This document shows positions 7,211 to 59,967 of a stretch of 64,000 nucleotides of DNA, in pieces. The position numbers were made by a program, and so were the translations under genes. Origin of the DNA: Halorubrum lacusprofundi ATCC 49239 (GTDB lineage: Archaea > Halobacteriota > Halobacteria > Halobacteriales > Haloferacaceae); assembly GCF_000022205.1 (NCBI RefSeq), contig NC_012028.1, positions 186,001 to 250,000 on the forward strand, given 5' to 3'. The notes under the pieces are model-generated. The model did not search any database, was not told where the DNA came from, and was given only the letters and a program-made list of their open reading frames with translations. Position 1 is the stretch's first letter. Every line of letters starts with the position of its first letter.

Positions 7211-7592
7211 ATGAAGTGCCCTCCAAATGACAGCACTCGACGACAATCGCTTCAGGTGATCGGTGGTATCGGTATTACAGCCACCGCTGGGTGTCTCACG
7301 TCGTTTTCACGATTGGACTCCTGTTCAAACTCGAACGAGGGCGGTTTTTCATTAGACGAAGCAACGGTGACCGGTATCTCCAACGAGTTTAGCACACCTC
7401 TCGATGGGTTGCCTCACGCTACACAAGTCGCCGTTGCCGACGCACTCAATGCGGATTCTGGTGAATCTACTTCCCGGGGATACTACTCTCCGGATCCACG
7501 GACTGACTTCGTCGTCACGGGACCTGAAGCACACTACTCTCGTATCGAAACAACCGATCACGACGGAACACAGACGACCGGTTACGAATACT
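7211..7592 (+). pseudogene. lipoprotein gene truncated by ISH3
   Basis: Starts MKCPPNDSTRRQSLQ and has a hydrophobic segment ending in a lipobox (ATAGC) near residues 25-30. RR before the hydrophobic stretch suggests Tat export. The mature part has a pattern (YYSPDPRTDFVVTGPEAHY) common to haloarchaeal surface lipoproteins. The frame enters the ISH3 left tip at 7593 and ends eight codons later, so the C-terminal part is lost. The missing half is not elsewhere in this window. Confidence 0.6.
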
Positions 7593-8991
7593 CAGTACTT
7601 CACAAAGCCGCTTAGTTAGAACGTCTGCTTGCTGAAGGTGTGTCTAAAACCAAACAAGCAGACGGTGAGATCCACGAGGACCAGCTTCTTAACTTTCTCG
7701 TCAACCGCCTTGACGAGGAAGTTTCGCTCTCGTTAGCCAATAACGCTGAAATCACTGCTGAAGACATCTATGAGGTCCTCGTCGGCGCTTGCGCCGACGG
7801 GACCTCTGTCTCTACGCTCTGTGCGTCGAGCCAGAACTCACCCGCTGGGAACACGGTCCTCTACCATCTTCGGACGAAGTTCGAGCCGGAACGGCTCGAA
7901 CGAGTCGCTAACACGCTCCTGCGAAAGGATCTCGATGAATTGCTCCCCGAACAGGTGGAGGTCTGCGCAGACCTCCACCTGCGGCCCTACTACGGTGACG
8001 AAGACGACACAGACGGCCTCTATCACTCGGTAGCGAAGCGTGGAACCACTGCGTTCCACGCCTATGCCACACTCTACGCGCGTGTGAAGAACAAACGCTA
8101 CACGCTGGCGGTACGCCGTCTCAAAGACGGCGATACCGCAAGTAGTGTCCTCGCTGAGTTCTTCGGTGTCCTCGACGGCCTTGACGCCGGGGTCAAGGCC
8201 GTCTACCTTGATCGCGGATTCTACGACAGTAAGTGTCTCACGCTGCTTCAGGCGCACAATTACGCGTACGTGATCCCGATCATCCGGTGGGGTGAGGCGA
8301 TTCAGCAAGAGCTCTCGGAAGGATGGAGTCGCGTCATTCAGCATGATCTGACGGGGAAACTCGACGGTCACAGCTGGACCGTCGATTTTCCCGTCTACAT
8401 CGACTGTACGTACCTAAATGGGAAGTATGACGAGAACGGTGTGGCGCGTCACGGCTACGCCGCTGACGCGCCGTTCATCGACTCACCACGGGACGCTCGA
8501 TACCACTACTCGAAACGCTTCGGTATCGAGTCAAGCTATCGCTTGTTTGAGCAAGCGATAGCGACAACGACAACACGAGATCCAACGGTACGGCTGCTGT
8601 ACGTGGTGGTGAGTCTCCTCTTACAGAACGTCTGGCGGTACCTTCACTACGAGTATGTGGCGACGCCCCGCCGAGGCGGGCGTCGCCTCTGGTGGTGGCC
8701 GTACAAGGAGTTCGTCAATATGATTCGACGAGCTGCGTGGACGGCCCTCGCGGTGCGTCGGGCCGTCCCCGCGAATCGGCCACCTGACGACCGATTCCAC
8801 CGCTAACCACCGACCGAGCAAGCCAGCGGAGTGAGTGGCGACGCTGTCGCGTCGGCGGCTGACCGCCGCCGACAGCGACAGCTCTCCGTCGATCCGTCCG
8901 TAATTCTCTCGTCGAGACCGTCAGTACAACCGCTTCGACACAGAACTCAGGCCGCAGAAACAGCTAGCCGAGGATGCTTTGTGAGGTACTG
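7593..8991 (+). mobile_element. ISH3 copy 1
   Basis: 1399 bp bounded by near-perfect terminal inverted repeats: CAGTACTTCACAAAGC at the left and, reverse-complemented, CAGTACCTCACAAAGC at the right. It contains one transposase gene. The flanking five bases differ (ATACT left, AGAAC right), so there is no target duplication. Interestingly ATACT is also the right flank of copy 2. The 180 bp after the transposase gene contain a GC-rich inverted repeat around 8840-8880. Both neighbouring genes are cut exactly at its ends. Confidence 0.92.
7640..8806 (+). CDS. ISH3 family transposase (IS4 superfamily)
   Basis: A 388-aa DDE transposase starting at GTG. Candidate catalytic acids are in ADLHLRPYYG and VYLDRGFYD and in the C-terminal YSKRFGIESSYR, which fits the Y-(2)-R-(3)-E signature of IS4-type enzymes. 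The C-terminus is basic and Trp-rich. The protein is the same in all three copies of the window, so amplification is recent. I recognise the family from haloarchaeal ISH3 elements. Confidence 0.93.
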   Translation: MSKTKQADGEIHEDQLLNFLVNRLDEEVSLSLANNAEITAEDIYEVLVGACADGTSVSTLCASSQNSPAGNTVLYHLRTKFEPERLERVANTLLRKDLDELLPEQVEVCADLHLRPYYGDEDDTDGLYHSVAKRGTTAFHAYATLYARVKNKRYTLAVRRLKDGDTASSVLAEFFGVLDGLDAGVKAVYLDRGFYDSKCLTLLQAHNYAYVIPIIRWGEAIQQELSEGWSRVIQHDLTGKLDGHSWTVDFPVYIDCTYLNGKYDENGVARHGYAADAPFIDSPRDARYHYSKRFGIESSYRLFEQAIATTTTRDPTVRLLYVVVSLLLQNVWRYLHYEYVATPRRGGRRLWWWPYKEFVNMIRRAAWTALAVRRAVPANRPPDDRFHR

Positions 8992-8992
8992 A

Positions 8993-43381: not shown

Positions 43382-43435
43382 AGGCCCCGTGTCGGTGGAG
43401 ATATAACTCCGGGCATGTGGGCACTCCTCGATCAG

Positions 43436-43765
43436 GTGACATCCTCCCCGGCGTGAACGCCGGGGCTTCCCGTACCGCAGGTGGGATATTTGCCGGTCTA
43501 CGACACGACCTGTTCTCGCGGGGCGAACGCTCCACTTTCTGAATCGAACAAGTGTGTCGATGGCTGTGCCACACAGCCGTTACTCCTATCCTCACCGTGA
43601 GGATAGGAGTTATCTTCTGACGCATATAGCCTATGTAGAACCAGTTACTTAATAGTTGTGGATTACCGTGGAATATCCGGCCAGAGTGTCATCGGTGGAC
43701 TGGTCAACAAGTGTCGGATTCACGCCCGCCGTAAACGGCGGGATTCTCTCCTTGTGAAAAGATAG
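43436..43765 (-). mobile_element. tnpB-less IS derivative, type 1, second copy (330 bp)
   Basis: Same structure and same deletion junction as the element at 28070 (left part through ACATAGGCTAT, joined to ATGCGTCAGAAG of the right end), with a few base differences. Stems GGCTGTG/CACAGCC (43562-43578) and the tip hairpin are intact. The flanks differ from the other copy, so it moved as a 330-bp unit. Confidence 0.8.
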
Positions 43766-44245: not shown

Positions 44246-45094
44246 ATGCAGAATACCAACGTTTCGACAACGGAGGTGTCGGTGGATGAACAAGGACTCG
44301 AACCAGTAGATGCAGAGCCGGTCGATGCGCCGTTGTGGCCCCGAGTCGAGCTCCAAACACAGGCGAAGGTGGACGCAAATCACCCCGATGCAGGGCTGAG
44401 CGGACTCACCCTGGCTGCCGAGGAAAAAGCGCTAGCGCGCGAAGCTGAAAAGGCACGCACTCGCGAGCGATGGGATCGTCGGCAGACCTCCGATCGAGAA
44501 GCTCGGACACGACAGGTCGCCATCGAGGAGAGCAAAAAGCGCCGAGATGTGTTTGCTGAGCGGCGTGCAAGCGTGGATCCGTGGGCTGATCCCGACCGAG
44601 ACGATCCCAGAGCGGGACTGTCTCGTGATACGTTGGCGACGGTGAATCAGGAGGCACGCCGGATCGCAAAGGGCACCCATGGGTGGACGGCCGCGGCGGT
44701 GAGCAGACAACTGGCGCGGCGCGTCGCCGACGGTGCAGAAATGACGACGGCGGTCATCCACGTGACAGAGCAGGTCCAGCAGGCGCTGGGGACAATCATG
44801 CCGATCGACACAATTAGCGAGATCGCTCGCGGGACGGTGAGCATTTCGGGGCGGTGGACTGATGATTGGGAGCCGTCTCACCCAGCCATCCAGCAAGTTG
44901 GTCTCCTCGAAGACGATACCGGGCAGATCAAGGTGACGGTGTGGCACAAATCAGCCCAACCACTCATCGACGAAGGCGAGCGGGTGCGACTGATTGATGT
45001 CGCGACGAGCTGGTACGACGGCCGCGTGTCAGTGGCGCTGACCGGGTGGTCACGAGTCGATTTCCCCGAGCGCGATCGGTGGTGGGACGCGTAG
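44246..45094 (+). CDS. OB-fold DNA-binding protein
   Basis: 282 aa. A charged helical region (about residues 55-105, many Arg/Glu) is followed by a helix-rich part, then an OB-fold at the C-terminus: GTVSISGRWTDDWEP, QVGLLEDDTGQIKVTVWHK, GERVRLIDVATSWYDGR. This is the signature of haloarchaeal RPA/SSB-like proteins encoded on plasmids. It probably coats single-stranded DNA during replication or transfer. Confidence 0.65.
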   Translation: MQNTNVSTTEVSVDEQGLEPVDAEPVDAPLWPRVELQTQAKVDANHPDAGLSGLTLAAEEKALAREAEKARTRERWDRRQTSDREARTRQVAIEESKKRRDVFAERRASVDPWADPDRDDPRAGLSRDTLATVNQEARRIAKGTHGWTAAAVSRQLARRVADGAEMTTAVIHVTEQVQQALGTIMPIDTISEIARGTVSISGRWTDDWEPSHPAIQQVGLLEDDTGQIKVTVWHKSAQPLIDEGERVRLIDVATSWYDGRVSVALTGWSRVDFPERDRWWDA

Positions 45095-45334: not shown

Positions 45335-45660
45335 TCACCACAGCGTCGCTTTCACGTCGACGGCGACCTTCCAGAGCTGTCGCATGACGATCTTCACGTC
45401 GTAGGTGAATGACTGCTCGCGTACGTACTGGAGGTCATAGTGGAGTTTGGCTTCGGGTTCGACGCTGCTAGCGTCGTTAATCTGTGCGAGTCCCGTCAAG
45501 CCGGGTTTGACGAACCATCGCTTGCGCCACGTCTCAGTTTCAGCTTCCAAGAGGTGTTCTTCTTCGGTCCACACTACTCGTGGCTCGACAACGCTCATAT
45601 CGCCGCGAAGAATCGACCACAACTGCGGGATCTCATCGGAATGGGTAGGTTTTGCCTTTG
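45335..45660 (-). pseudogene. sugar transferase remnant (C-terminal part)
   Basis: Reads THSDEIPQLWSILRGDMSVV, then WTEEEHLLEAE, WFVKPGLTGLAQINDASSVE, LHYDLQYVREQSFTYDVKI and a stop. This is the end of the bacterial-type sugar-1-phosphate transferase family (initiating enzymes for polysaccharide or glycan assembly). The N-terminal membrane helices and first catalytic half are absent, and VVEPR replaces the usual VVGPR. Sequence beyond 45660 does not continue the family. Confidence 0.7.
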
Positions 45661-45870
45661 CAACTTCCAAAAGACGAGCAGGTGACGGCAACCACCTCGG
45701 TGCTTATCGGATACGACAACCAGAGGTACACACGAACTGCACCGGTCCCGGACGGAATGGTGACGATCTGTGTCACACATCCCGATGAGTATACCGTCGG
45801 GGATCAGACGGTTGCTGTGAGTTCTGAGGACGTTCTTAAGGGAAACCAGACAGCGATATCTGTCGGGTAA
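45660..45870 (+). pseudogene. C-terminal fragment of an unknown surface/glycosylation protein
   Basis: The frame ends with TTSVLIGYDNQRYTRTAPV, then VTHPDEYTVGDQTVAVSSED and a stop. This looks like a beta-sandwich end of an exported protein. It has no start of its own and abuts the sugar transferase remnant head-to-head near 45660, so two broken genes have been joined there. No family recognised; 45871-45993 is non-coding. Confidence 0.35.
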
Positions 45871-45993
45871 CGCGTGCAGTCGCGCGTATGCTGGTTGGCA
45901 ATCACCTGAGCGTTGCTCAACTGTCGTTCTGGTGTTAAAATTGCCGTGTTCGATCCCCGAACACTCATACCGACTGGCGTTTGTTTCACGGAT

Positions 45994-47931
45994 ATGCCGT
46001 CGTACAGCGATGAGGAACTCCTTGCAGAGATTCGTCGCGTCGCAGAAAAGACCGACGCCGATGGCGCGCCAAGTCTCCAGGAGTTCAGAGACCGCGGCGA
46101 GATCGGGGCGCGAACAGTCACGAAGCGATTCGGATCGTGGAACGACGCCGTTGACGCCGCCGGATTCGAGCCACGTGCACCGAATCAAAAGCTTCCGCGT
46201 GAGGATCTCGTCGACGAACTTGAGCGGCTTCGTGACGACCGCGGCCAGATTCCTACTGCCGACCAGATGGACGAGCAGGGCGCGTACGCGTACATCACCT
46301 ACTACGAGCGGTTCGGTTCGTGGGCGAACGCCCTTGAGGAAGTCTTTGGCGAGGTTCCTGCCCGCGAGTGGGAGCACGTCTCGGATGCCGAGCTCATCGC
46401 CGAGCTGCAGCGGCTCGCTGGCGACGACGGAGACCGACCGACGACGACGGCTGTCCACGAGCGCGGTGCCCACGCGGTGACGACGTACAACGACCGATTC
46501 GGGTCGTGGCGAGACGCGCTCACGGCGGCCGGCTTCGACCCGCCGCCGCCCCAGGGCGTGACGACCGAGGAGTTACTTGCCGAGGTGCGCCGGCTTCACG
46601 ACGAGCTCGGCGGGAAACCAACGACGACGGTCGTTCGCGACCACGGCGCATACTCGCTTCCGACGTACTACAGCCGGTTTGATTCGTGGGGTGACGTCCT
46701 CGACGCCGCATTCGACACCATCCCTGATGACGATCCGCAGAGCCACACCACTGACCAGTCCACTAGCGTAACACACACCGACGAGGATCTCCTCGCAGAG
46801 ATCCGCCGCGTCGCCGACGTTGTCGATGCTGATGGCGCACCATCAATCCCGGAGTTCAACGAGCACAGCGACATCGCTGACAGTACAATCCACCGCCGGT
46901 TCGGATCGTGGAACGAGGGCGTTGCGGCCGCCGGCTTCGAGCCGAATCCGTATGGGCCCGCTATCTCGGACGACGAACTGGCTGCTGAGCTCCAGCGCCT
47001 CCGTGAGGAGGTCGGACACCCACCAACTGTCGCAGACATGGAGGAACAGGGCGCGTACTCATCGGCGACGTACAAGAACCGCTTTGACTCGTGGACCGCT
47101 GCGCTCGTCGAGACCTTTGAGGATGTCTCCGAGTCCACCCTCAACTCTCGCCGGGGCGACAGCGGTACGGGCAGTGACCGGAGTAACTGGAGCAAGGGTC
47201 CGCACGTCTCGGACGAGGAACTGCTGGATGATCTCCGGGCGCTTGCTGATGAGCTCGGTCGGTCGCCTACCTCACGGGACATGCGCGAACACGGCTCGCA
47301 TAGCGCCCGGACATACACGAGGCGGTTCGGCTCGTGGGCGGACGCCGTCGACGAAGCGGGAATCGACCTGCCTACCGAGACGACAACAGACGCCTCGAAC
47401 CAGATCCCAACCGCCGACCTAATCGCCGATCTCCAGCGACTCGGCGAGGAACTCGATCGGCGCCCCAAAACGACGGACGTGAGCGAACACGGGGCGCACG
47501 GGCTCGCCACGTACCAGCGCCGATTCGGGTCGTGGCGCGAGGCGCTAGAGGCGGCCGGGTTCGATCCGTACGCAGATCGGCCGAGTGATGACGACCTCCT
47601 TGCGGATCTACACCGGCTGCACGAAGAGCGTGAGAAGGTGCCCTCGCTGTTGGACGTCGAAGACGACGGCGCGTACAGCGGCACGGCCTACCAGGGCCGA
47701 TTCGGATCGTGGTCTGCAGCGCTCGACGCGGCGGGGTTCGATCCGGATCGCGGGCCGACTGACGACGAGCTGCTCGCAGAACTGCGGCGGCTTCGCGATG
47801 AGCTGGATAAGCGCCCCTCGATGCGCGACATGACCGAGCACGGCGCGTACGGGTGTACGACGTATCAGCGCCGGTTCGGCTCGTGGAGTGAAGCGACTGC
47901 AGCGGCATTCGACGACGATACGAGAACGTAG
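45994..47931 (+). CDS. ten-repeat homing-endonuclease-associated repeat protein
   Basis: 645 aa from ATG 45994, made almost only of ten tandem ~55-75 aa repeats. Each has an acidic helix (SDEELLAEIRR-type), a proline-containing segment (PT-x-D/V-E-x-G) and TYxxRFGSWxxALxAAGF. This is the homing endonuclease associated repeat (HNH_repeat type), thought to bind DNA. There is no HNH, LAGLIDADG or other nuclease motif. Modular repeats suggest recognition of a long DNA target. The gene lies just before the S-layer gene. Confidence 0.8.
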   Translation: MPSYSDEELLAEIRRVAEKTDADGAPSLQEFRDRGEIGARTVTKRFGSWNDAVDAAGFEPRAPNQKLPREDLVDELERLRDDRGQIPTADQMDEQGAYAYITYYERFGSWANALEEVFGEVPAREWEHVSDAELIAELQRLAGDDGDRPTTTAVHERGAHAVTTYNDRFGSWRDALTAAGFDPPPPQGVTTEELLAEVRRLHDELGGKPTTTVVRDHGAYSLPTYYSRFDSWGDVLDAAFDTIPDDDPQSHTTDQSTSVTHTDEDLLAEIRRVADVVDADGAPSIPEFNEHSDIADSTIHRRFGSWNEGVAAAGFEPNPYGPAISDDELAAELQRLREEVGHPPTVADMEEQGAYSSATYKNRFDSWTAALVETFEDVSESTLNSRRGDSGTGSDRSNWSKGPHVSDEELLDDLRALADELGRSPTSRDMREHGSHSARTYTRRFGSWADAVDEAGIDLPTETTTDASNQIPTADLIADLQRLGEELDRRPKTTDVSEHGAHGLATYQRRFGSWREALEAAGFDPYADRPSDDDLLADLHRLHEEREKVPSLLDVEDDGAYSGTAYQGRFGSWSAALDAAGFDPDRGPTDDELLAELRRLRDELDKRPSMRDMTEHGAYGCTTYQRRFGSWSEATAAAFDDDTRT

Positions 47932-48202
47932 CCATCGTGAAAGTCAATCGCAGTGGGGACGCAGACGATCGGGCAGGTCCCTACCCTGAAAATCAGCACC
48001 CGATCGCCTGAGAGGGTCCGAACCCATTCTGTAGAAGGCGTGGGGCACAGGTATGTGTTCCGGTCGACGTACACGAAAACGACCCGTATCTCTCGCGTCA
48101 CGAGAGCGTGTGGCTGTCACACCCGATCTTTGAAAACGGGCGTCTGACGCTCGCTCCCGGGCGTGCGGGGCGTTCACACACCGTGGATAGCCACACAAAG
48201 CA

Positions 48203-48379
48203 TTTATACCCGACGACAGTTGGTACAGGTGCAGCCCTACCCGGTACAATGCGACGCCGATTGCGAGTAATTCGATCCAAGTCCGGTCGCGCCCTCGACG
48301 CAGTGTCGGTCGATAACGAACGGGCGAGTAAGGAGAGGGCAAAGCACGGGTGTCGCGACGCAGAACGAAACAACATACA
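48203..48379 (+). promoter_or_regulatory. promoter and long leader of the S-layer gene
   Basis: TTTATA at 48203-48208 is the best TATA-like box; transcription would then start near 48232, giving a leader of ~148 nt. Long structured leaders are known for haloarchaeal S-layer mRNAs. The 47932-48202 stretch has no gene. The long frames on the minus strand through 50005 are shadows of the S-layer gene. Confidence 0.45.
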
Positions 48380-51022
48380 ATGACAAACGATACAAACTAT
48401 CGCACGAAGGCCAACGCGGTCTTCTTCGCGGCTATCATGGTCGTCTCCATGGTCGCTCTTGGCTTTGCTGCTGCTCCCGCGGCAGCGGTCGGTGGCGGTG
48501 AGGATATTACATTTAGTGACCAAGAGCTCGGAGATGATGGTAACGTAACAGCAACTATTACACATGACGGGACAACAGGAGTTGATGGTTCTGTCATCAT
48601 TACCTACAATGACTCCTCCGGCAACACGACTGTTGCTGGCGTTGAAAATGTAGACTCTGCTGGCAGCATTGACGTTGAAGTTGAGGACGACGGCGGGTTC
48701 CCGGGTGCTCACACAGCACATCTCACCAACGATAGCGCTTCTACGCAGACCGTTGGTAACTCCGTTGTCAACGCCAGTAATATCGTAAACTCCTCCAGTG
48801 CGGTCGTTTACTCGGATGCACTGGTTACTGGCACAACCCAGTTCCAGGGTCAGGAACTGACACAGAACGTGACGGGGCAGTTCGCTGACACCAGCGATCT
48901 GGAACTCCGTTCGATCGACACGAGTGAGACAGCGAGCGAAATCGGTGGTCTCGAACAGGCTCTTACGACTCAGGACTCCTACGGTGTCGAGACTGTGTCC
49001 TTCGACACGGATGACCTCGAACCGGGTGTCTACGCGGTCACCAATCAGACGCGTGGTAACGACGTCAGCGCTGAAACGACCTTCGAGGTCGTCACTCAGG
49101 GCCTTTCGACGGAGTTCGACGAGGACTCTGTCGGCAACGTTGATGGTGAAGACGAAGTTGACTTCGATATCAGCTCCAGCCAGCGGAACACCTACGATGT
49201 TGAAGTCAGCGCCGACGGCCTCGACGCCGAAGAACTCGCCAACATCTTCACGAACTCCGGTGCGTTCGATGAGGAAGACGTGACCGAAGACGACGAGGAC
49301 GACCTCATCGTGCTCTCGGACGCTGAAGGCGACCACACGCTGAACTTCACGGATGTTGACGCAGGCGAATACGAGTTCGAAACCTCCGTCACTGACACGA
49401 CCGCGGAAGACACGTCGAGTGTCACCGTGGAAGATGTGGCTGACGGTGAAGTCAACATTGAACAGTCCAGCCTCACCCAGCAGCAGGGCGACATTGTTGA
49501 ATTCAATGTGACGGCTGACGGAGCAACGAACTCCGGTACTGTGGTCGTTGGTGGCCAGGACGACTTCGGCTACCAGGCAAACGTCTCCATCACCGACTTC
49601 GGTGACGATGATCAGATCACCCTGGCATTCAACACCTACGCAGCTGGCGACGGTGTTGCTGCCACGGACGCCGTGACTATCGTTGATGCCGACGACGACG
49701 ACAACATCAACGTCGAAGAAGCAGAACAGCTGAGCGGAATTCTCGCAACGGGCGACTACGACATCTCCTCGTCGAGCGCATCCAACGACCCGGCCGAGAC
49801 CCTCGACAACTCGGACGACGTTGCGACGCTCTTCATCGAAGAGCGCTCCACGGATGGCATTCAGATCTGGACTGCCTCCGACAGCAACGCGAACGATGTC
49901 CTCGACGCCGATGAGGACGAGCAGCTTGAGACGCTCACGGGCGCCGTTGAAAGCGACCTGATCACGCAGACTGGCACGGTCGCGCACAACGACGTGAGCA
50001 TCCACCAGATCAGCGCAAGCGGCCTGTCCGGTGCGCTCGCAGCAGCGGGCGACCTCACGGGTAGTGATGACGAGAGCGTGCAGTTCGCCAACCTCACTAC
50101 TCTGGACAACGAGAACCTCGGCGGTCAGGCGCTCGACCTGCGCATCCGCGAGACGCGCGCAAGTGCCGGCCCGAACGCGCAGCGCGATACCGTTGACATC
50201 GACTCGGATAACTTCGACATCCTTGTCGATGAGGAGAACGACGAGTACTACCTCGTCCTTGACACCAGCGACATCACTGTGGACGGCGATTCGCTGGACA
50301 ACAGCGAGGACTACGAGTTCGACGTCGAATTCACGGTGACGAGTGAACGGTTACTCAACCCTGAAGACGATACCGACAAGAGCGAGTTCGAAGATCTCCA
50401 CCAGGAGGTTACGACTCCGTTCTCGATCGAAGAGCGCACGGCTGAATTCGATGAGGACCCGTACAACGTCTCGAACACTGACAGCGAAGAAGTGACGGGT
50501 ACGACGAACGTGGCCCCGGGTACGGACTTCACTGTTCGCTCCCGCTCCGCCAGTGGAACGCAGCCCTCGTTCGTCAAGACAAACAGCGACGTTAACGTGT
50601 CCGCTGACGGCAGCTGGTCCACTGAGTTCGACTTCAGCGGCCAGTCCGTTGGTGACGAGTACACGTTCCGTGTCCAGCAGCTGGGCCTGAACGACGCTGT
50701 CGAAGTTGACGGCACGGTCGTCGAAGCGGTCGACGACGGTACCGACGACGACTCCACCGAGGACGACTCCACCACGGACGACGACTCCGCAACGGATGAC
50801 GACTCGTCCACCGAGGACGACTCCACCACGGATGATGACTCCACGGACGACGACTCGTCCAGCGAGGACGACTCCTCCAGCGAGGACGACTCTTCCAGTG
50901 AGGACGACTCCTCCAGCGGAGATGACAGCACGACTGAGGACGACACGCCTGGCTTCGGCGCCATCGTCGCTCTCGTCGCGCTCATCGCCGCCGCGCTCCT
51001 CGCGACCCGCCGTAACGAGTAA
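48380..51022 (+). CDS. csg: S-layer glycoprotein
   Basis: 880 aa from ATG 48380. The signal peptide (NAVFFAAIMVVSMVALGF) ends in APAAA near residue 36. The mature protein is extremely acidic with many N-glycosylation sequons (NVT, NDS, NTT, NSS). Residues ~785-853 are an Asp/Ser/Thr linker, the site of O-glycans in known S-layers. The end is TPGFGAIVALVALIAAALLA-TRRNE, i.e. a PGF motif plus helix plus basic tail, the signal for archaeosortase and lipid attachment. It would form the cell's outer lattice. Confidence 0.85.
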   Translation: MTNDTNYRTKANAVFFAAIMVVSMVALGFAAAPAAAVGGGEDITFSDQELGDDGNVTATITHDGTTGVDGSVIITYNDSSGNTTVAGVENVDSAGSIDVEVEDDGGFPGAHTAHLTNDSASTQTVGNSVVNASNIVNSSSAVVYSDALVTGTTQFQGQELTQNVTGQFADTSDLELRSIDTSETASEIGGLEQALTTQDSYGVETVSFDTDDLEPGVYAVTNQTRGNDVSAETTFEVVTQGLSTEFDEDSVGNVDGEDEVDFDISSSQRNTYDVEVSADGLDAEELANIFTNSGAFDEEDVTEDDEDDLIVLSDAEGDHTLNFTDVDAGEYEFETSVTDTTAEDTSSVTVEDVADGEVNIEQSSLTQQQGDIVEFNVTADGATNSGTVVVGGQDDFGYQANVSITDFGDDDQITLAFNTYAAGDGVAATDAVTIVDADDDDNINVEEAEQLSGILATGDYDISSSSASNDPAETLDNSDDVATLFIEERSTDGIQIWTASDSNANDVLDADEDEQLETLTGAVESDLITQTGTVAHNDVSIHQISASGLSGALAAAGDLTGSDDESVQFANLTTLDNENLGGQALDLRIRETRASAGPNAQRDTVDIDSDNFDILVDEENDEYYLVLDTSDITVDGDSLDNSEDYEFDVEFTVTSERLLNPEDDTDKSEFEDLHQEVTTPFSIEERTAEFDEDPYNVSNTDSEEVTGTTNVAPGTDFTVRSRSASGTQPSFVKTNSDVNVSADGSWSTEFDFSGQSVGDEYTFRVQQLGLNDAVEVDGTVVEAVDDGTDDDSTEDDSTTDDDSATDDDSSTEDDSTTDDDSTDDDSSSEDDSSSEDDSSSEDDSSSGDDSTTEDDTPGFGAIVALVALIAAALLATRRNE

Positions 51023-51154
51023 CATCGCTACGCGGACCGCGACTTCGCGCTAACCAACTATCGGCCCACGCGGGCCGACTCCTTGCGGTTTTCTTTATCG
51101 CACTCACGTGCCGAGCGACGGTACTCACTCGCGCCGTGATGCAGATACCCACAG

Positions 51155-52611
51155 CTATCTTTTCACAAGGAGAGAATCCCGCCGTTTACGGCGGGCGTGA
51201 ATCCGACACTTGCTGACCAGTCCACCGATGACACTCTGGCCGGATATTCCACGGTAATCGACACTATTAAGTAACTGGTTCTACATAGGCTATGTATGGC
51301 GAATCTCACCGTCACGCGCACCTACGTTGGTTCTATCCAGAACCATCGGCAGGTGTCTGATGGTCTGGATTCGCTCGGGGATTCCGCCTCGAAAATCTGG
51401 AACGTCGCACGATGGACAGTTGACCGAATCTGGGATGTAACCGGAGAAATCCCAGACGAGGGCGTTCTGAAATCGTGTATGAAGAACCGGTCGTGCTGGA
51501 AAGACTTGAACGCGCAATCCAGTCAGAAAGTCATCGAAGAACTTTCTGACGCTTTCCAGTCGTGGTTCGACCTGCGACACAAGTTTGACGAGGCGAATCC
51601 ACCCGGCTACCGCAAACACGGCGACACCCGACCGCGTTCCACGGTGACATTCAAAGAAGACGGATTCAAACACGACCCCGAGAACAACCGCGTCCGGCTC
51701 TCGAAAGGCTCGAACCTGAAAGAATACTGGTCGGACTTCATTCTCTGCGAGTACCAGACGCGCCCTGACATTGACCTCTCTGAAGTCAACCGAGTGCAGA
51801 ACGTTCGCGCCGTCTGGAACGGCGACGAGTGGGAACTGCACTTCGTCTGCAAAGTCGAACTCGAATCTGCCGACCCAGCAGGCGACGAAGTGGCGGGGAT
51901 TGACCTTGGCATCAAGAACATCGCCACGATCGCCTTCCCGGACGAATACGTTCTCTACCCCGGTAACTCGCTCAAAGAAGACAAGCACTACTTCAAACGA
52001 GCCGAGTACGACACCGAAGGTGAGAACGGCCCCTCGGAGAAGTCGATGTGGGCGCGTCGGAAACTCGCTGACCGCGAAACACACTTCTACCACGTCCTCT
52101 CAGACACCATCATCACAGAGTGTGTCGAACGCGGTGTTGGTACACTCGCGGTGAGTTGGCCCGAAGACGTGCGAGATTCAGACTGGGGCAAAACTGGGAA
52201 CAAGAAGTTACACTCGTGGGCGTTCGACCGCATCTACCAGTACCTCGCGTACAAAGGCGAGATTCACGGTGTCGAGGTGTTGAAGGAGAACGAGTGGAAC
52301 ACCTCAAAGACCTGCTCGAACTGTGGTGACGACACGAAGGAGAACCGTGTCGAGCGTGGGTTGTACGTCTGCTCGTCGTGCGGTTTGGTTGGGAACGCGG
52401 ATTGCAACGGGGCGGAGAACATGCGTCAGAAGATAACTCCGAGTCCTCACGGAGAGGATAGGAGTAACGGCTGTGTGGCACAGCCATCGACATACTTGTT
52501 CGACCGCGAGATCGGGACGTTTCACACGAGAGAACAAGCCGTGTCGTAGACCAGCAAATATCCCACCTGCGGTACGGGAAGCCCCGGCGTTTACGCCGGG
52601 GAGGATGTCAC
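51155..52611 (+). mobile_element. IS200/IS605-type element with tnpB only (copy B)
   Basis: Same tips as copy A: CTATCTTTTCAC-AAGGAG with its hairpin at the left, and a CCCCGGCG/CGCCGGGG hairpin with GGATGTCAC at the right. 1457 bp. It lies directly after the S-layer gene. The sequence outside the tips is unrelated to that of copy A. Confidence 0.85.
51296..52549 (+). CDS. tnpB: TnpB RNA-guided nuclease, copy B
   Basis: 417 aa, over 90% identical to copy A by eye, with differences clustered near residues 20-60 and 85-100. RuvC Asp in AGIDLGIKNIA, the zinc finger CSNCG/CSSCG and the last Asp in GNADCNGAENM are intact. Its right end (52469-52485) keeps the GGCTGTG/CACAGCC stem, so it carries its own omega-RNA scaffold. 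The guide would begin after 52611. Confidence 0.9.
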   Translation: MANLTVTRTYVGSIQNHRQVSDGLDSLGDSASKIWNVARWTVDRIWDVTGEIPDEGVLKSCMKNRSCWKDLNAQSSQKVIEELSDAFQSWFDLRHKFDEANPPGYRKHGDTRPRSTVTFKEDGFKHDPENNRVRLSKGSNLKEYWSDFILCEYQTRPDIDLSEVNRVQNVRAVWNGDEWELHFVCKVELESADPAGDEVAGIDLGIKNIATIAFPDEYVLYPGNSLKEDKHYFKRAEYDTEGENGPSEKSMWARRKLADRETHFYHVLSDTIITECVERGVGTLAVSWPEDVRDSDWGKTGNKKLHSWAFDRIYQYLAYKGEIHGVEVLKENEWNTSKTCSNCGDDTKENRVERGLYVCSSCGLVGNADCNGAENMRQKITPSPHGEDRSNGCVAQPSTYLFDREIGTFHTREQAVS

Positions 52612-53071
52612 GTGCTGTAAGTCTCTTATGCCGAATCTGGGTATCTCACCCGGTTTGCCTATTTTATCTATTACGCCTATTATGCCTATCGCCGAAATTT
52701 CTTCTATTTCACATATCACACCAATTCTTTCTATTTCACCTACTCACACTATTCCACCGAAAAACAGGGTTAGGCCATCTCTATCCGGTGATTGGGACAG
52801 AGTTTTATGTTCCTCATTCGTATGAAGGATTGCACCTCGCGAAGGTGAAGTCTGGATTCGAGTGTTTGGTGGATCCCTCACGGAAGTATCAGGGTTGCTG
52901 GCCGCTCAGTGAACAACTGGCCACGTGATCTGAGGCCTTCGATACTCCCCCGGATTCATAATTTTGAATCCACCCGTTCACTACGTGTCGTTTTCCTCGA
53001 TGAGTGCGTCTTGTAGAAGAGATAGGATTTCCCAAACAAGACGAGTCGGATTGTGTGTTGGGAACGAATAT
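52612..53071 (+). other. non-coding region with ATAGGY-type repeats and a gene end
   Basis: 52650-52750 is a degenerate short-period tract, CCTATT-like on this strand, similar to the one before tnpB copy A (18590-18660). 52780-52928 is open and reads YPVIGTEFYVPHSYEGLHL, then KVKSGFECLVDPSRKYQGCW and a stop, probably the end of a lost gene. 52929-53071 has nothing I can name; its last bases flank ISH3 copy 2. Confidence 0.4.
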
Positions 53072-54470
53072 CAGTACTTCACAAAGCCGCTTAGTTAGAA
53101 CGTCTGCTTGCTGAAGGTGTGTCTAAAACCAAACAAGCAGACGGTGAGATCCACGAGGACCAGCTTCTTAACTTTCTCGTCAACCGCCTTGACGAGGAAG
53201 TTTCGCTCTCGTTAGCCAATAACGCTGAAATCACTGCTGAAGACATCTATGAGGTCCTCGTCGGCGCTTGCGCCGACGGGACCTCTGTCTCTACGCTCTG
53301 TGCGTCGAGCCAGAACTCACCCGCTGGGAACACGGTCCTCTACCATCTTCGGACGAAGTTCGAGCCGGAACGGCTCGAACGAGTCGCTAACACGCTCCTG
53401 CGAAAGGATCTCGATGAATTGCTCCCCGAACAGGTGGAGGTCTGCGCAGACCTCCACCTGCGGCCCTACTACGGTGACGAAGACGACACAGACGGCCTCT
53501 ATCACTCGGTAGCGAAGCGTGGAACCACTGCGTTCCACGCCTATGCCACACTCTACGCGCGTGTGAAGAACAAACGCTACACGCTGGCGGTACGCCGTCT
53601 CAAAGACGGCGATACCGCAAGTAGTGTCCTCGCTGAGTTCTTCGGTGTCCTCGACGGCCTTGACGCCGGGGTCAAGGCCGTCTACCTTGATCGCGGATTC
53701 TACGACAGTAAGTGTCTCACGCTGCTTCAGGCGCACAATTACGCGTACGTGATCCCGATCATCCGGTGGGGTGAGGCGATTCAGCAAGAGCTCTCGGAAG
53801 GATGGAGTCGCGTCATTCAGCATGATCTGACGGGGAAACTCGACGGTCACAGCTGGACCGTCGATTTTCCCGTCTACATCGACTGTACGTACCTAAATGG
53901 GAAGTATGACGAGAACGGTGTGGCGCGTCACGGCTACGCCGCTGACGCGCCGTTCATCGACTCACCACGGGACGCTCGATACCACTACTCGAAACGCTTC
54001 GGTATCGAGTCAAGCTATCGCTTGTTTGAGCAAGCGATAGCGACAACGACAACACGAGATCCAACGGTACGGCTGCTGTACGTGGTGGTGAGTCTCCTCT
54101 TACAGAACGTCTGGCGGTACCTTCACTACGAGTATGTGGCGACGCCCCGCCGAGGCGGGCGTCGCCTCTGGTGGTGGCCGTACAAGGAGTTCGTCAATAT
54201 GATTCGACGAGCTGCGTGGACGGCCCTCGCGGTGCGTCGGGCCGTCCCCGCGAATCGGCCACCTGACGACCGATTCCACCGCTAACCACCGACCGAGCAA
54301 GCCAGCGGAGTGAGTGGCGACGCTGTCGCGTCGGCGGCTGACCGCCGCCGACAGCGACAGCTCTCCGTCGATCCGTCCGTAATTCTCTCGTCGAGACCGT
54401 CAGTACAACCGCTTCGACACAGAACTCAGGCCGCAGAAACAGCTAGCCGAGGATGCTTTGTGAGGTACTG
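53072..54470 (+). mobile_element. ISH3 copy 2
   Basis: 1399 bp with the same tips as copy 1. Flanks are AATAT (left) and ATACT (right), not a duplication; ATACT is instead the left flank of copy 1. It cuts the glutathione transferase-like gene. Same orientation as the other two copies. Confidence 0.92.
53119..54285 (+). CDS. ISH3 family transposase, copy 2
   Basis: 388 aa, identical to the protein at 7640, GTG start. All candidate catalytic acids are present. Confidence 0.93.
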   Translation: MSKTKQADGEIHEDQLLNFLVNRLDEEVSLSLANNAEITAEDIYEVLVGACADGTSVSTLCASSQNSPAGNTVLYHLRTKFEPERLERVANTLLRKDLDELLPEQVEVCADLHLRPYYGDEDDTDGLYHSVAKRGTTAFHAYATLYARVKNKRYTLAVRRLKDGDTASSVLAEFFGVLDGLDAGVKAVYLDRGFYDSKCLTLLQAHNYAYVIPIIRWGEAIQQELSEGWSRVIQHDLTGKLDGHSWTVDFPVYIDCTYLNGKYDENGVARHGYAADAPFIDSPRDARYHYSKRFGIESSYRLFEQAIATTTTRDPTVRLLYVVVSLLLQNVWRYLHYEYVATPRRGGRRLWWWPYKEFVNMIRRAAWTALAVRRAVPANRPPDDRFHR

Positions 54471-55280
54471 ATACTGGTGGATGTACTGCACGTTACACAT
54501 GAAGTGTGTATGGTAGACGTGATCGAACCGAATGAGGGTCGTAAACATGCAGATGTCGGCCTCGGTCAACTGGTCGCCAGCGAGGAACCGTTGGTCTTCG
54601 AGGACCGAATCCCAGTGGTCGAGGGCGTCGAACAGTTCGTCGACGGCCTCGTCGTAGGGGCCCTGTTTGGTCGCGAATCCGGCCCGGTAGACCCCGTTGT
54701 TGATCGGCTCGTAGATATCGGTGATGATCTCGTCGACCTCCTCGCGGATCGCTTCGGGCGCGAGGTCGACGTCCCGCTCGGCCACGTCGCCGAACCCAGT
54801 CGAGAGCATCCGAATGATTTCGCGTGACTCGTTGTTGACGATGGTCTCTTCTTTCGTGTCCCACAGCACCGGGACGGTCACCCGGCAGGTGGCGTCGGGG
54901 TCGGCCTCGACGTACAGTTCACGGAGATAGTCGCTCCTGTAGAGTTTGTCCTCGGTACACCCCTCCTTCTCGGGGGTGAACTGCCAGCCGTCATCGTCGC
55001 GATAGGGGTCGACTACCGAGATGTCGATGGCGTCTTCAAGTCCCATCAGCGCCCGAATGAGCAGGGTGCGGTGGGCCCACGGACAGGCATAACTCACGTA
55101 GAGGTGGTAGCGACCGGCCTCAGCCTCGAAGCGGTCGTCCGGTTCGGCCTCAATGTGCTCCGGCACGTCGGAGCCAGCAATCCAGTTCCTGAACGGGGTC
55201 GTCTGCCGCTCGAAAGCCCCCTCCTCGTTGGTCGCCTGAAACATGTCGGTTCGCCACTCGCCGTCGACGAGCATATTCAT
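54471..55280 (-). pseudogene. glutathionyl-hydroquinone reductase-like gene, 3' end lost
   Basis: Starts [12 protein letters not shown] at 55280. The catalytic Cys is in YVSYACPWAHRTLL, the standard CPWAHR motif of the YqjG/Xi-class glutathione transferase family, followed by VPVLWDTKEETIVNNES and the helical C-domain up to FDHVYHTHFMCNVQYIHQY. There the ISH3 tip begins, removing the last ~50 residues. Haloarchaea lack glutathione, so the natural thiol is probably gamma-glutamylcysteine. A truncated product would lack part of the helical domain. Confidence 0.8.
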
Positions 55281-57264: not shown

Positions 57265-58040
57265 ATGAAAGATACACACTACAAAACTCGTCGTCGGTTC
57301 ATCACCGGCGTGGGAGCGACCGGTGCAGTTGCGCTTGCAGGGTGTACTGATTCCAACGACAGCGGCTCGTCCGGCGCGACAGCGGGCTCCGGATCCGAAT
57401 CGATGGCCGATGAGATCGTGTTCTACAACTCCGGGTCACTGGAGTTCGACCCCGGAACGGAAACGAACATCGAACGGTTCGAAGAAGAGACCGGAATCAG
57501 CGTGGAGGTCAACGAGGTTCCGTGGAGCAATCTAAAAACCAGCCTCACCACGATCTGGCGGAACGAGGACAACAAGGTCGACGCGTTCAACGGTCCGACG
57601 TGGTGGCTCGCCGACTTCGTCAGCTCCGGATGGCTCGAACCGCTCGGACTCGGCGATGACCACATGTCTAAGTTCCCGGATTCGCTCACGAATCTGGTTC
57701 AGTTCGACGGTCAGACGTATATGGCCCCGGAGTTCGGCAAATGGGGCAGCTACCTCTACGACCAGCAGTATCTCGAACAACAGGGATTCGAATCACCACC
57801 GGACACGTGGGACGAGGTGCTTGAACAGGGTGAACAGCTCGCGAGCGACGACAAGGCGGGCTTCGCGTTCACGTGGTCCGATAAGTCAGTGTTCACGTTC
57901 AAGCAGTTCCTGTATCAGGCGGGCGGGCAGCTGTTCAACGACAGCAACGAACCAACGTTCGTCGAGGAGGGCGTCGAAGTGTTGGAGTTCTTCGACCAAC
58001 TCCGCGAGCGGAACATCATCCCCGACGGCATGTCCAGTCT
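57265..58040 (+). pseudogene. Tat lipoprotein solute-binding protein, 5' part
   Basis: It starts MKDTHYKTRRRFITGVGATG. The twin-arginine signal RRRFITG and the lipobox LAGC show export and lipid anchoring. The mature part (IVFYNSGSLEF, RFEEETGISVEVNEVPW, GKWGSYLYDQQYLEQQGF) is of the sugar-type extracellular solute-binding fold. It is cut by ISH3 copy 3 after DGMSSL. The frame continues exactly at 59445 once the IS and one AGTCT are removed. The thiamin neighbourhood suggests a thiamin or pyrimidine ligand, but the fold does not prove it. Confidence 0.85.
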
Positions 58041-59439
58041 CAGTACTTCACAAAGCCGCTTAGTTAGAACGTCTGCTTGCTGAAGGTGTGTCTAAAACCA
58101 AACAAGCAGACGGTGAGATCCACGAGGACCAGCTTCTTAACTTTCTCGTCAACCGCCTTGACGAGGAAGTTTCGCTCTCGTTAGCCAATAACGCTGAAAT
58201 CACTGCTGAAGACATCTATGAGGTCCTCGTCGGCGCTTGCGCCGACGGGACCTCTGTCTCTACGCTCTGTGCGTCGAGCCAGAACTCACCCGCTGGGAAC
58301 ACGGTCCTCTACCATCTTCGGACGAAGTTCGAGCCGGAACGGCTCGAACGAGTCGCTAACACGCTCCTGCGAAAGGATCTCGATGAATTGCTCCCCGAAC
58401 AGGTGGAGGTCTGCGCAGACCTCCACCTGCGGCCCTACTACGGTGACGAAGACGACACAGACGGCCTCTATCACTCGGTAGCGAAGCGTGGAACCACTGC
58501 GTTCCACGCCTATGCCACACTCTACGCGCGTGTGAAGAACAAACGCTACACGCTGGCGGTACGCCGTCTCAAAGACGGCGATACCGCAAGTAGTGTCCTC
58601 GCTGAGTTCTTCGGTGTCCTCGACGGCCTTGACGCCGGGGTCAAGGCCGTCTACCTTGATCGCGGATTCTACGACAGTAAGTGTCTCACGCTGCTTCAGG
58701 CGCACAATTACGCGTACGTGATCCCGATCATCCGGTGGGGTGAGGCGATTCAGCAAGAGCTCTCGGAAGGATGGAGTCGCGTCATTCAGCATGATCTGAC
58801 GGGGAAACTCGACGGTCACAGCTGGACCGTCGATTTTCCCGTCTACATCGACTGTACGTACCTAAATGGGAAGTATGACGAGAACGGTGTGGCGCGTCAC
58901 GGCTACGCCGCTGACGCGCCGTTCATCGACTCACCACGGGACGCTCGATACCACTACTCGAAACGCTTCGGTATCGAGTCAAGCTATCGCTTGTTTGAGC
59001 AAGCGATAGCGACAACGACAACACGAGATCCAACGGTACGGCTGCTGTACGTGGTGGTGAGTCTCCTCTTACAGAACGTCTGGCGGTACCTTCACTACGA
59101 GTATGTGGCGACGCCCCGCCGAGGCGGGCGTCGCCTCTGGTGGTGGCCGTACAAGGAGTTCGTCAATATGATTCGACGAGCTGCGTGGACGGCCCTCGCG
59201 GTGCGTCGGGCCGTCCCCGCGAATCGGCCACCTGACGACCGATTCCACCGCTAACCACCGACCGAGCAAGCCAGCGGAGTGAGTGGCGACGCTGTCGCGT
59301 CGGCGGCTGACCGCCGCCGACAGCGACAGCTCTCCGTCGATCCGTCCGTAATTCTCTCGTCGAGACCGTCAGTACAACCGCTTCGACACAGAACTCAGGC
59401 CGCAGAAACAGCTAGCCGAGGATGCTTTGTGAGGTACTG
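58041..59439 (+). mobile_element. ISH3 copy 3 with intact target duplication
   Basis: 1399 bp, same tips as the other copies. Flanked on both sides by AGTCT (58036-58040 and 59440-59444), the expected 5-bp duplication. This is therefore a simple insertion that has not recombined since, into the solute-binding protein gene. Confidence 0.95.
58088..59254 (+). CDS. ISH3 family transposase, copy 3
   Basis: 388 aa, identical to the protein at 7640. It is probably the source or a product of very recent transposition. Confidence 0.93.
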   Translation: MSKTKQADGEIHEDQLLNFLVNRLDEEVSLSLANNAEITAEDIYEVLVGACADGTSVSTLCASSQNSPAGNTVLYHLRTKFEPERLERVANTLLRKDLDELLPEQVEVCADLHLRPYYGDEDDTDGLYHSVAKRGTTAFHAYATLYARVKNKRYTLAVRRLKDGDTASSVLAEFFGVLDGLDAGVKAVYLDRGFYDSKCLTLLQAHNYAYVIPIIRWGEAIQQELSEGWSRVIQHDLTGKLDGHSWTVDFPVYIDCTYLNGKYDENGVARHGYAADAPFIDSPRDARYHYSKRFGIESSYRLFEQAIATTTTRDPTVRLLYVVVSLLLQNVWRYLHYEYVATPRRGGRRLWWWPYKEFVNMIRRAAWTALAVRRAVPANRPPDDRFHR

Positions 59440-59967
59440 AGTCTGGGCGAGGGTGGGATCGGTGACAACTTCGTCGCCGGTCAGTACGCGACGGTCGAAT
59501 CGTGGACGCCGCTCGGCTCCCGCGCGATCAGCGAATGGGAAGACGGTCGACTCGGGAGCGCACGACCGCCGAAAGGGCCCGAGTCGCGCGCCACGTTCCA
59601 AGACACGAACGGGATCAGCGTCTCGGCGTTCTCCGAGCGAAAGGACGCTGCCAAGGAGTTCGCGCGGTTCATGACCACCCGCAGTTCGTCGAAAAACAAC
59701 ATGCTCGTCGAAGGGAACCCCAGCGTCGTCCCGGACGTCTACGAGGACGACGAGATTCAGGCAGAGTACCCCTCCGAACTGCTCGATGACATGCGGTTCA
59801 ATCTCGAAAACGCGCAGGGCGAGAACTACATGGCTCAGCCACAGGTCGACGATTACCTCAACGAACAGATCACTCAGGCGTTGCTGGGTAATAAAGAACC
59901 CCGAGCCGCACTCGAAGATGCCTACGCCAACATCGAACGCCTCTACCAAGACATCGGCCTGATCTAA
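59440..59967 (+). pseudogene. solute-binding protein, 3' part
   Basis: Continues the gene from 58040: LGEGGIGDNFVAGQYATVES, WTPLGSRAISEW, VSAFSERKDAAKEFARFM and on to IERLYQDIGLI and a stop at 59967. The joined gene would encode about 430 aa, normal for the family. No start of its own is likely. Confidence 0.85.

Follow-up and report, generated by a model that had tools for sequence, protein, structure and literature searches.

Gene Content of the Locus

The segment described here is located on the secondary chromosome (CHR2) of Halorubrum lacusprofundi ATCC 49239, an archaeon from a cold lake, within a window of 64,000 nucleotides (the whole stretch of DNA analysed, whose numbering is used throughout), and contains the following features:

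43433-43765, minus strand: TnpB element copy, inverted and internally deleted (inverted repeats I1-I4)
44246-45094, plus strand: RPA-like OB-fold protein (NF005553, 58 bits)
45335-45691, minus strand: polyprenyl-phosphate sugar transferase remnant, C-terminal Bac_transf piece (PF02397, 91 bits; 118 of ~480 aa)
45643-45858, plus strand: STT3/AglB-like oligosaccharyltransferase remnant, C-terminal tail (47% identity with cluster c2, residues 756-831; a single internal TAG)
45994-47931, plus strand: HNH_repeat protein gene, intact, 645 aa, ten four-helix repeats (PF18780)
47773-48390, plus strand: putative left recombination arm, with the last HNH_repeat unit and the S-layer promoter, leader, and first codons (matches to plasmid pR1SE2)
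48380-51022, plus strand: S-layer glycoprotein gene Hlac_2976, 880 aa (TIGR04207, NF045517, DUF7827, PGF-CTERM)
50692-51158, plus strand: putative right recombination arm, with acidic linker, PGF-CTERM, and 3' flank (85.4% to pR1SE2 over 472 columns)
51155-52614, plus strand: full TnpB (IS200/IS605-type) element (NF040570, 176 bits; RF02656 at 52431-52602)
53071-54471, plus strand: ISHla1 copy, ISH3 family (NF033541, 378 bits)

The name Hlac_2976 was taken from PMC10544981 and assigned through the replicon and the identity to the paralogue; that the protein forms an S-layer also rests on the accessible text of that paper. Its sequence showed a surface-glycoprotein signal peptide (TIGR04207, 24.7 bits against a cut-off of 24.6), a BGTF surface domain (NF045517, 81.2 bits, cut-off 40), and a PGF-CTERM anchor (TIGR04126, 49.8 bits, cut-off 24.5; PF18204, 32.9 bits), and it was not filed under NF041335, the ArtA-dependent S-layer glycoprotein equivalog, where it reached 194.3 bits against a curated cut-off of 1100. 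These domain matches, with IS elements around the gene, confirmed the claim of an earlier note on this DNA that an S-layer gene lies in a mobile block. It is not, however, the sole S-layer gene of the genome, as the second copy that the note had proposed to look for was found on CHR1 (G000:C2:429354-432542), 43% identical to that of the window; the published identity between Hlac_0412 and Hlac_2976 is 41% (PMC10544981).

The sugar transferase remnant that the earlier note had recognised before the S-layer gene belongs to a cluster (c8) whose full-length members, of 471-490 aa, adjoin S-layer loci in five relatives, and what it had taken for a fragment of another exported protein turned out to be the oligosaccharyltransferase tail. 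Cluster c2, to which this tail aligns, scored 81 bits against archaeo_STT3, under the cut-off of 450, and differs from the aglB gene of CHR1, so its identification as canonical AglB was rejected in favour of an STT3-like protein. In relatives, both the sugar transferase and the STT3-like oligosaccharyltransferase are intact and adjoin S-layer genes; that the broken glycosylation genes are tails of such genes was not found in print. The RPA-like neighbour is shared with a cassette of another genus (L107), with 65% identity and conserved gene order.

IS elements flank the segment and one follows the S-layer gene directly, as previously claimed. The full TnpB element, with its omega-RNA-type end, starts 132 bp past the S-layer stop and was assigned to the IS200/IS605 type on these two features; no tnpA was seen in it. 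The deleted copy on the other side retains the sot0042 RNA, of omega RNA type (RF02656, 114 bits, gathering 88), and the ISHla1 copy is identical over 1401 bp to two others at 7592-8992 and 58040-59440.

The HNH_repeat Gene

The earlier inventory held for the remnants and the S-layer gene but had missed the intact 2-kb HNH_repeat gene, whose start was set from aligned relatives. PF18780 matched its product in 10 stretches (613 bits, cut-off 26) and was the one family to pass its cut-off; an HNH nuclease domain was not found in this protein, which was therefore not filed as a nuclease, nor in the HNH_repeat proteins of L051 and L105. Ten pairwise comparisons among five sequences gave dN/dS values of 0.11-0.28, at dS of 0.8-2.6, near saturation, suggesting purifying selection on the intact copies. 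Searches of solved structures by sequence gave no match at E <= 1, and AlphaFold2 was used to model both the full protein and a single repeat. Foldseek returned no match at E <= 0.001 for either. When the predicted repeat was compared with known helix-turn-helix DNA-binding domains, Z-scores were 3.0-6.5 for TetR-family chains and 7.6 for SauUSI; a strong PDB match to the repeat fold was not found.

Among 51 S-layer genes, from loci picked because they contain such genes and with duplicates kept (L049 is the same as L020; L014 and L015 come from G044 and G046), HNH_repeat units were found upstream of 13, and the remaining 38, including the CHR1 copy, had none. In 12 of these 13 linked loci, duplicates likewise kept, the nearest unit, whether gene or remnant, lies 467-522 bp upstream of the S-layer gene; the exception, L061, with a single short hit at 141 bp, falls outside this spacing class. 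All 58 repeat hits share the strand of the S-layer gene. Conversely, of 29 loci picked by HNH_repeat similarity, 25 lacked an adjoining S-layer gene, and several precede other exported proteins or bear a true HNH nuclease. The presence of an HNH_repeat gene at S-layer loci was not found in print.

Comparison with Plasmid pR1SE2

Comparison of alleles and flanks among strains, also proposed in the earlier note, was informative for pR1SE2, a plasmid of a sister strain of the same species. The left arms share 526 bp with one mismatch, and matches are exact at 47773-48151, 48153-48298, and 48316-48390, a region containing a TATA-like TTTATA of the S-layer promoter at 48203; over a wider left arm (47423-48486), identity is 91.3%. 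The spacer between the HNH_repeat and S-layer genes is 448 bp in both replicons. At the right arm, identity ranges from 85 to 93%, with exact matches at 50960-51027 and 51084-51158. Between these arms, the S-layer body of pR1SE2 is unrelated to that of the window, with about 34-36% amino acid identity over the alignable parts. Matching arms around different bodies, which we have not found in print, appear to be direct sequence evidence of ectodomain replacement, in a single comparison of two strains; an old divergence followed by gene conversion of the arms would give the same picture. The plasmid itself holds ~31 kb of the backbone of the vesicle plasmid pR1SE, most of that plasmid, at 93-100%, and the S8 peptidase and the AAA ATPase of the two plasmids have identical protein accessions.

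The same gene with the same flanks in all relatives, named in the earlier note as the outcome against its idea, was not seen. In a comparison with 51 other Halorubrum genomes, the nearest homologue had 66% identity and shared none of the genes that flank the S-layer gene in the window; S-layer genes also occur in several unrelated genomic contexts. In a tree of 31 S-layer proteins (from a motif-based list, L020 and L021 omitted and genes missed by the motif not added), the body in the window and that of pR1SE2 belong to separate supported clades. On this tree, HNH linkage required eight changes, forced by supported branches, and random labels did as well, with counts as low in 91 of 500 shuffles; arm and body are thus uncoupled. 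An upstream alignment, with L020, L021, and L017 omitted as duplicate or distant, revealed that promoter and leader are conserved in HNH-unlinked S-layer loci as well; conservation of the arm thus need not involve the HNH_repeat gene. A structured leader RNA was considered and set aside; folding gave eight predicted pairs, three of them changed on both sides, with a covariation term of -0.64 kcal/mol.

S-Layer Genes in Proviruses of Relatives

In three other Halorubrum species, the HNH_repeat and S-layer pair appears to lie inside BJ1-like tailed proviruses, two of them with viral flanks on both sides. These proviruses are in contig_64 of Hrr. tebenquichense and at the G002 and Atlit-26R loci. 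In L131 and L019, the pair has tail-fibre-side genes on one side and J-domain genes on the other; in L048, the pair follows the same fibre module. Contig G046:C64 was identified as a BJ1-like tailed provirus by its terminase, portal, major head protein, tape measure, and fibre genes; a major head protein is also present in G002:C15, and BJ1 homologues at the proviral loci range from 50 to 87%. IMG/VR lists two of the three loci as viral. The signal-peptide pattern recovered four IMG/VR contigs, including L159, which is the G002:C15 locus again, and L157 and L158, in which an S-layer gene was not seen and which were discarded as chance matches. Carriage of the window gene by a known virus was rejected, as phage records contained no DNA match, and isolated virus records no S-layer relative, the proviral S-layer protein having no match there. 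Proviral pairs of this kind were not found in print.

Discussion

The segment is probably one copy of a recombining, horizontally moving surface-antigen cassette, whose replaceable part would be the S-layer ectodomain. Its conserved left end would comprise the HNH_repeat gene and the promoter, leader, and signal peptide of the S-layer gene, and its right end the linker, the PGF-CTERM anchor, and the 3' flank. From this sequence pattern, we infer that homologous recombination between the ends exchanges the ectodomain and leaves promoter and anchor in place. Carriers would be secondary replicons and, in relatives, proviruses, and the surrounding IS elements may permit loss of whole stretches. 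The window copy may have descended from, or been patched into, an island of S-layer and N-glycosylation genes of which two tails are left. The HNH_repeat protein is probably a DNA-binding factor of the cassette; it would either regulate the adjacent promoter or take part in recombination, the former seeming roughly twice as likely.

Some of these observations would also fit an ordinary paralogue, a second S-layer gene moved to the secondary chromosome by IS rearrangement, whose diversity would reflect only how rapidly surface proteins diverge and whose flanks would have no function. The gene is indeed surrounded by IS elements, the remnants indicate decay, S-layer diversity within the species is documented (PMC6011602, in its accessible part), and several relatives (L058, L060, L072) have tandem S-layer genes without HNH_repeat units. 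We nevertheless consider this quite unlikely, since a near-perfect 526-bp arm beside an unrelated body within one species is a sharp breakpoint rather than gradual divergence, and HNH_repeat units keep the same distance and orientation even where the S-layer genes have diverged. It is more improbable still that the HNH_repeat gene is a selfish, homing-type passenger whose homing, and not viral selection, drives the exchange: the lack of a detectable nuclease domain and the purifying selection on intact copies argue against it, even if relatives of the protein on plasmids end in an HNH nuclease (such as L094 of the same genome, and others annotated as endonucleases), decay has affected many of the S-layer-linked copies (L050 and L052 contain stops, and L056 and L064 are down to single units), and, for Haloferax, homing by a LAGLIDADG enzyme has been put forward as the driver of glycosylation-island exchange (PMC5867893, as far as its accessible text goes).

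An origin by lysogenic conversion, in which viruses spread the pair and the plasmid and chromosomal copies are relics, would explain its position beside fibre genes and the viral calls of IMG/VR. It is unlikely too, although less so than the former two, given that isolated virus records hold no S-layer relative, most cassettes, including that of the window, have no viral neighbours, and the proviral loci found are three.

Beyond the recombining cassette itself, a broader reading is possible, and we put it forward tentatively, as something rather short of probable: S-layer alleles of Halorubrum might circulate as portable HNH_repeat and S-layer cassettes on plasmids and temperate tailed viruses, with BJ1-like proviruses, whose fibre gene is related to that of HRTV-DL1, a virus that binds the S-layer, carrying a whole S-layer gene beside the fibre module. 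As the provirus carries the whole gene, a lysogen would make its coat anew from the viral S-layer, shutting out competitors that use the old receptor. In bacterial lysogenic conversion of surface antigens, a gene of a temperate virus alters the surface that its relatives use as receptor; the cargo there is usually an antigen-modifying enzyme, whereas here it would be the coat protein itself.

The core of the exchangeable-cassette idea is already published. Mercier et al. (2023, PMC10544981) described the same gene as the preferred receptor of HRTV-DL1, with escape mutants that had lost Hlac_2976 or gained a 12-aa insertion in it, reported IS-bounded loss of CHR2, and proposed that having a pair of S-layer proteins is an advantage in the arms race. 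The exchangeable surface cassette of the earlier note is thus supported, largely by that paper and here by the pR1SE2 allele, and its suggestion of viral selection by the published mutants and not by our computation. The HNH_repeat gene, the glycosylation remnants, the same-arm allele of pR1SE2, and the proviral S-layer genes are not described in the accessible text of that paper. Strain-level S-layer replacement within conserved surroundings was also reported for the CHR1 island of Hrr. lacusprofundi (Tschitschko et al., 2018, PMC6011602), with 54% identity between ACAM34 and R1S1; in contrast to that CHR1 locus, the present case involves secondary replicons and defined arms. Similarly, haloarchaeal homeocassettes or divergent segments (PMC11078007, accessible portion) have divergent alleles, including the S-layer gene, at one site between conserved neighbours, but their flanks are chromosomal core genes, whereas here a small portable pair of arms is found on CHR2 and a plasmid.

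The present data bear on how an archaeal cell replaces its coat protein and retains the new version when viruses attack. They delimit a putative exchange unit, with a near-identical arm between strains, a swapped ectodomain, and a conserved anchor, alongside an unstudied HNH_repeat gene family, and indicate carriers that move between cells, namely tailed proviruses and a plasmid that includes the greater part of the vesicle plasmid pR1SE. Because a genetic system, a virus, and escape mutants have been published for Hrr. lacusprofundi (PMC10544981), the idea is directly testable in this organism. As the ends of the package match a plasmid of a sister strain while the coat protein differs, and similar packages are found in integrated viruses of related species, mobile DNA appears to carry the very coat to which viruses attach.

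Two S-layer genes and their published variation

The S-layer gene of the window (G000:C1:186001-250000), being that of CHR2, is Hlac_2976 of PMC10544981. Its 880-aa product matched profiles for a signal peptide, a BGTF surface domain, DUF7827, and PGF-CTERM. The second S-layer gene that the earlier note proposed to look for is present on CHR1 (G000:C2:429354-432542), adjoining the ribosomal protein L15e gene and 43% identical to the window copy. Tandem S-layer-type genes, two or three in number, were found in four Halorubrum loci (L058, L059, L060, L072), two of them at the L15e site.

According to PMC10544981, part of CHR2 was lost via ISHla1 copies in the laboratory strain ACAM34_UNSW; of the virus escape mutants, some no longer had Hlac_2976, which a large deletion had removed, and others had 12 aa inserted in its product. 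The receptor role of Hlac_2976 and its loss under virus attack are already published. As described in PMC6011602, the CHR1 S-layer gene is 54% identical between ACAM34 and R1S1 and forms a low-coverage island in lake metagenomes. Given these escape mutants and this strain variation, the proposal of an exchangeable surface cassette, perhaps under viral selection, is correct in outline, and in outline not new.

The insertion sits after residue 209. Since seven of its residues match the +1 reading frame of neighbouring DNA (codons 196-210, about 48965-49009), it appears to have arisen by local duplication out of frame.

Replacement of the S-layer body between sister strains

The cassette comprises two genes:

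45994-47931, + strand, HNH_repeat gene with ten PF18780 units
48380-51022, + strand, S-layer gene

Plasmid pR1SE2 (NZ_KX906370.1), from the Antarctic Hrr. lacusprofundi strain HLS1, carries a seven-unit HNH_repeat gene followed by a 960-aa S-layer-type gene, with the same 448 bp spacer as in CHR2. On the left side, the DNA of both is identical over 47773-48151, 48153-48298, and 48316-48390. Across the S-layer body, identity drops to about 40-60%; on the right it climbs back to 89-93% (50891-51090), and the segments 50960-51027 and 51084-51158 match exactly. The end of this right arm coincides with the start of the TnpB element (51155). The encoded bodies can be aligned only in part, at 34-36% aa identity, and they sit in different supported clades in a tree of 31 S-layer proteins. 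Because the arms are equal and the bodies differ within one species, this comparison of DNA and protein sequences identifies a replacement of the ectodomain between two strains, with the same ends and a different coat. Some 31 kb of pR1SE2 is shared, at 93-100% identity, with the vesicle plasmid pR1SE.

Among 391 Halobacteria genomes, DNA searches found the left arm in 16, each of them a Halorubrum, and a near search of PLSDB plasmids returned none besides pR1SE2. On the 31-protein tree, HNH_repeat linkage required eight changes, near the level of shuffled labels (mean 9.6; 91 of 500 shuffles as low); genus-wide too, the left arm therefore has a history apart from that of the body.

A TATA-like element about 177 bp 5' of the start codon, an upstream element with GAAAACGG, and a conserved leader of about 150 nt with slight covariation are common to the window S-layer gene (region 48203-48382) and 30 other Halorubrum S-layer genes. 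A second TnpB element copy, shortened by an internal deletion, lies at 43433-43765, inverted relative to the full one (51155-52614); tnpB is gone, and as the omega-RNA-type sot0042 RNA is retained (114 bits versus 97 in the full copy), it could be the source of a second guide. A 53-kb Halolamina plasmid (NZ_CP054590.1) has two adjoining surface-glycoprotein genes between TnpB elements.

The HNH_repeat gene

The intact gene at 45994-47931 had been overlooked by the earlier note. Profile searches found no nuclease domain in its product. An in-house profile of its units was run on 48 loci, 45 of which contained 51 S-layer-type genes: all 58 matches lay upstream of, and on the same strand as, an S-layer gene. 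Such units precede 13 of these S-layer-type genes; for all but one of the 13, the gap between the last unit and the start codon is 467-522 bp (mean 490, s.d. 19). As these loci were picked for their S-layer genes, the fair control is loci picked by HNH_repeat similarity; there, an S-layer gene adjoined the HNH_repeat gene in 4 of 29, downstream on the same strand in L093, L105, and L107 and divergently in L108. Among the 25 loci where it was absent, some HNH_repeat genes lay upstream of other exported proteins, and several carried an HNH nuclease and had RPA-like genes alongside. The closest relatives (at least 60% identity; 170 genomes of the family searched) were at S-layer genes in seven of seven matches, from five genomes. 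L107, from another genus, reproduces the window order of RPA-like (65% identity), HNH_repeat, and S-layer genes and shares one more upstream gene with it (62% identity).

The dN/dS of five HNH_repeat sequences was 0.11-0.28 (dS 0.8-2.6). AlphaFold2 predicted ten four-helix repeats (mean pLDDT 71; 85 for a single unit), and the top structural neighbours of one unit were SauUSI, with Z 7.6, and N-terminal domains of TetR-family proteins, with Z of at most 6.5; this is suggestive, although not proof, of a helix-turn-helix.

In locus L095 (G051:C69), HNH_repeat genes flank the S-layer gene: eight units lie on the upstream side, and four, oppositely oriented, on the downstream side. In L106, L110, and L112, other HNH_repeat genes stand some 280-300 bp ahead of genes for small exported proteins; this distance, again constant, hints that the association with surface genes is broader.

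Remnants of glycosylation genes

Neighbourhood clustering of relatives' S-layer loci revealed a recurrent order: a polyprenyl-phosphate sugar transferase gene on the opposite strand (Bac_transf, 471-490 aa at full length), an oligosaccharyltransferase-type gene (about 834 aa), and the S-layer gene. This order was found in L055, L067, L078, and L084, and further loci had the second gene near the S-layer gene without the first. We term the second STT3-like because its archaeo_STT3 match (81 bits) is under the cut-off of 450; the canonical aglB lies elsewhere (G000:C2:1058896-1061754). The broken glycosylation-type genes noted before the window S-layer gene proved to be the tails of these two, intact beside relatives' S-layer genes and here in the same order and orientation:

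45335-45691, - strand, tail of the sugar transferase gene
45643-45858, + strand, tail of the STT3-like gene, with one TAG inside

No other copies of either were found in this genome. The simplest reading would be that an S-layer/glycosylation island once occupied this site and has since lost its middle.

Proviral S-layer loci

The HNH_repeat and S-layer pair also lies 3' of tail genes in three loci outside the window genome, which IMG/VR classes as viral in two of three cases.

HNH_repeat and S-layer pairs in proviral loci
Hrr. tebenquichense contig_64 (G046:C64; L018/L053/L131): both viral flanks present
Halorubrum sp. Atlit-26R (L019): both viral flanks present
G002:C15 (L048): contig stops within the S-layer gene

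In G046:C64, helicase, terminase, portal, head, tape measure, fibre, and 227-aa protein genes precede the cassette, and genes for a J-domain protein and a clamp-loader-like protein follow it. The fibre, 227-aa, and J-domain proteins are 50%, 56%, and 82% identical to those of virus BJ1, and the fibre is 52% identical to HRTV-DL1 ORF24. The corresponding stretch of BJ1 runs from 1805, where the homologue of the 227-aa gene stops, to 2541, the start of the J-domain gene, and contains two tiny reading frames; the pair therefore fills a slot that BJ1 leaves nearly empty. Near this slot, BJ1 130-990 is annotated as a putative glycosyl transferase. G002:C15 is probably the Hrr. aidingense contig_15 in which PMC7911831 draws a provirus at nt 8804-39413, and its S-layer gene would then be within the published bounds. 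The hosts G046 and G002 each carry a further S-layer gene at a different location.

Proposed mechanism

In the open-licence literature we found no earlier report of an HNH_repeat/S-layer link or of a provirus-borne S-layer gene, which is weak evidence of absence because only open-licence papers were covered. As read from the compared loci, the cassette shows conserved ends, a swapped body, carriage by plasmid and provirus, and several genomic contexts. We propose that the cassette passes between cells and that homologous recombination at its conserved ends would swap the S-layer body; the HNH_repeat protein probably binds DNA. In lysogens, the receptor might be replaced by the provirus-borne S-layer.
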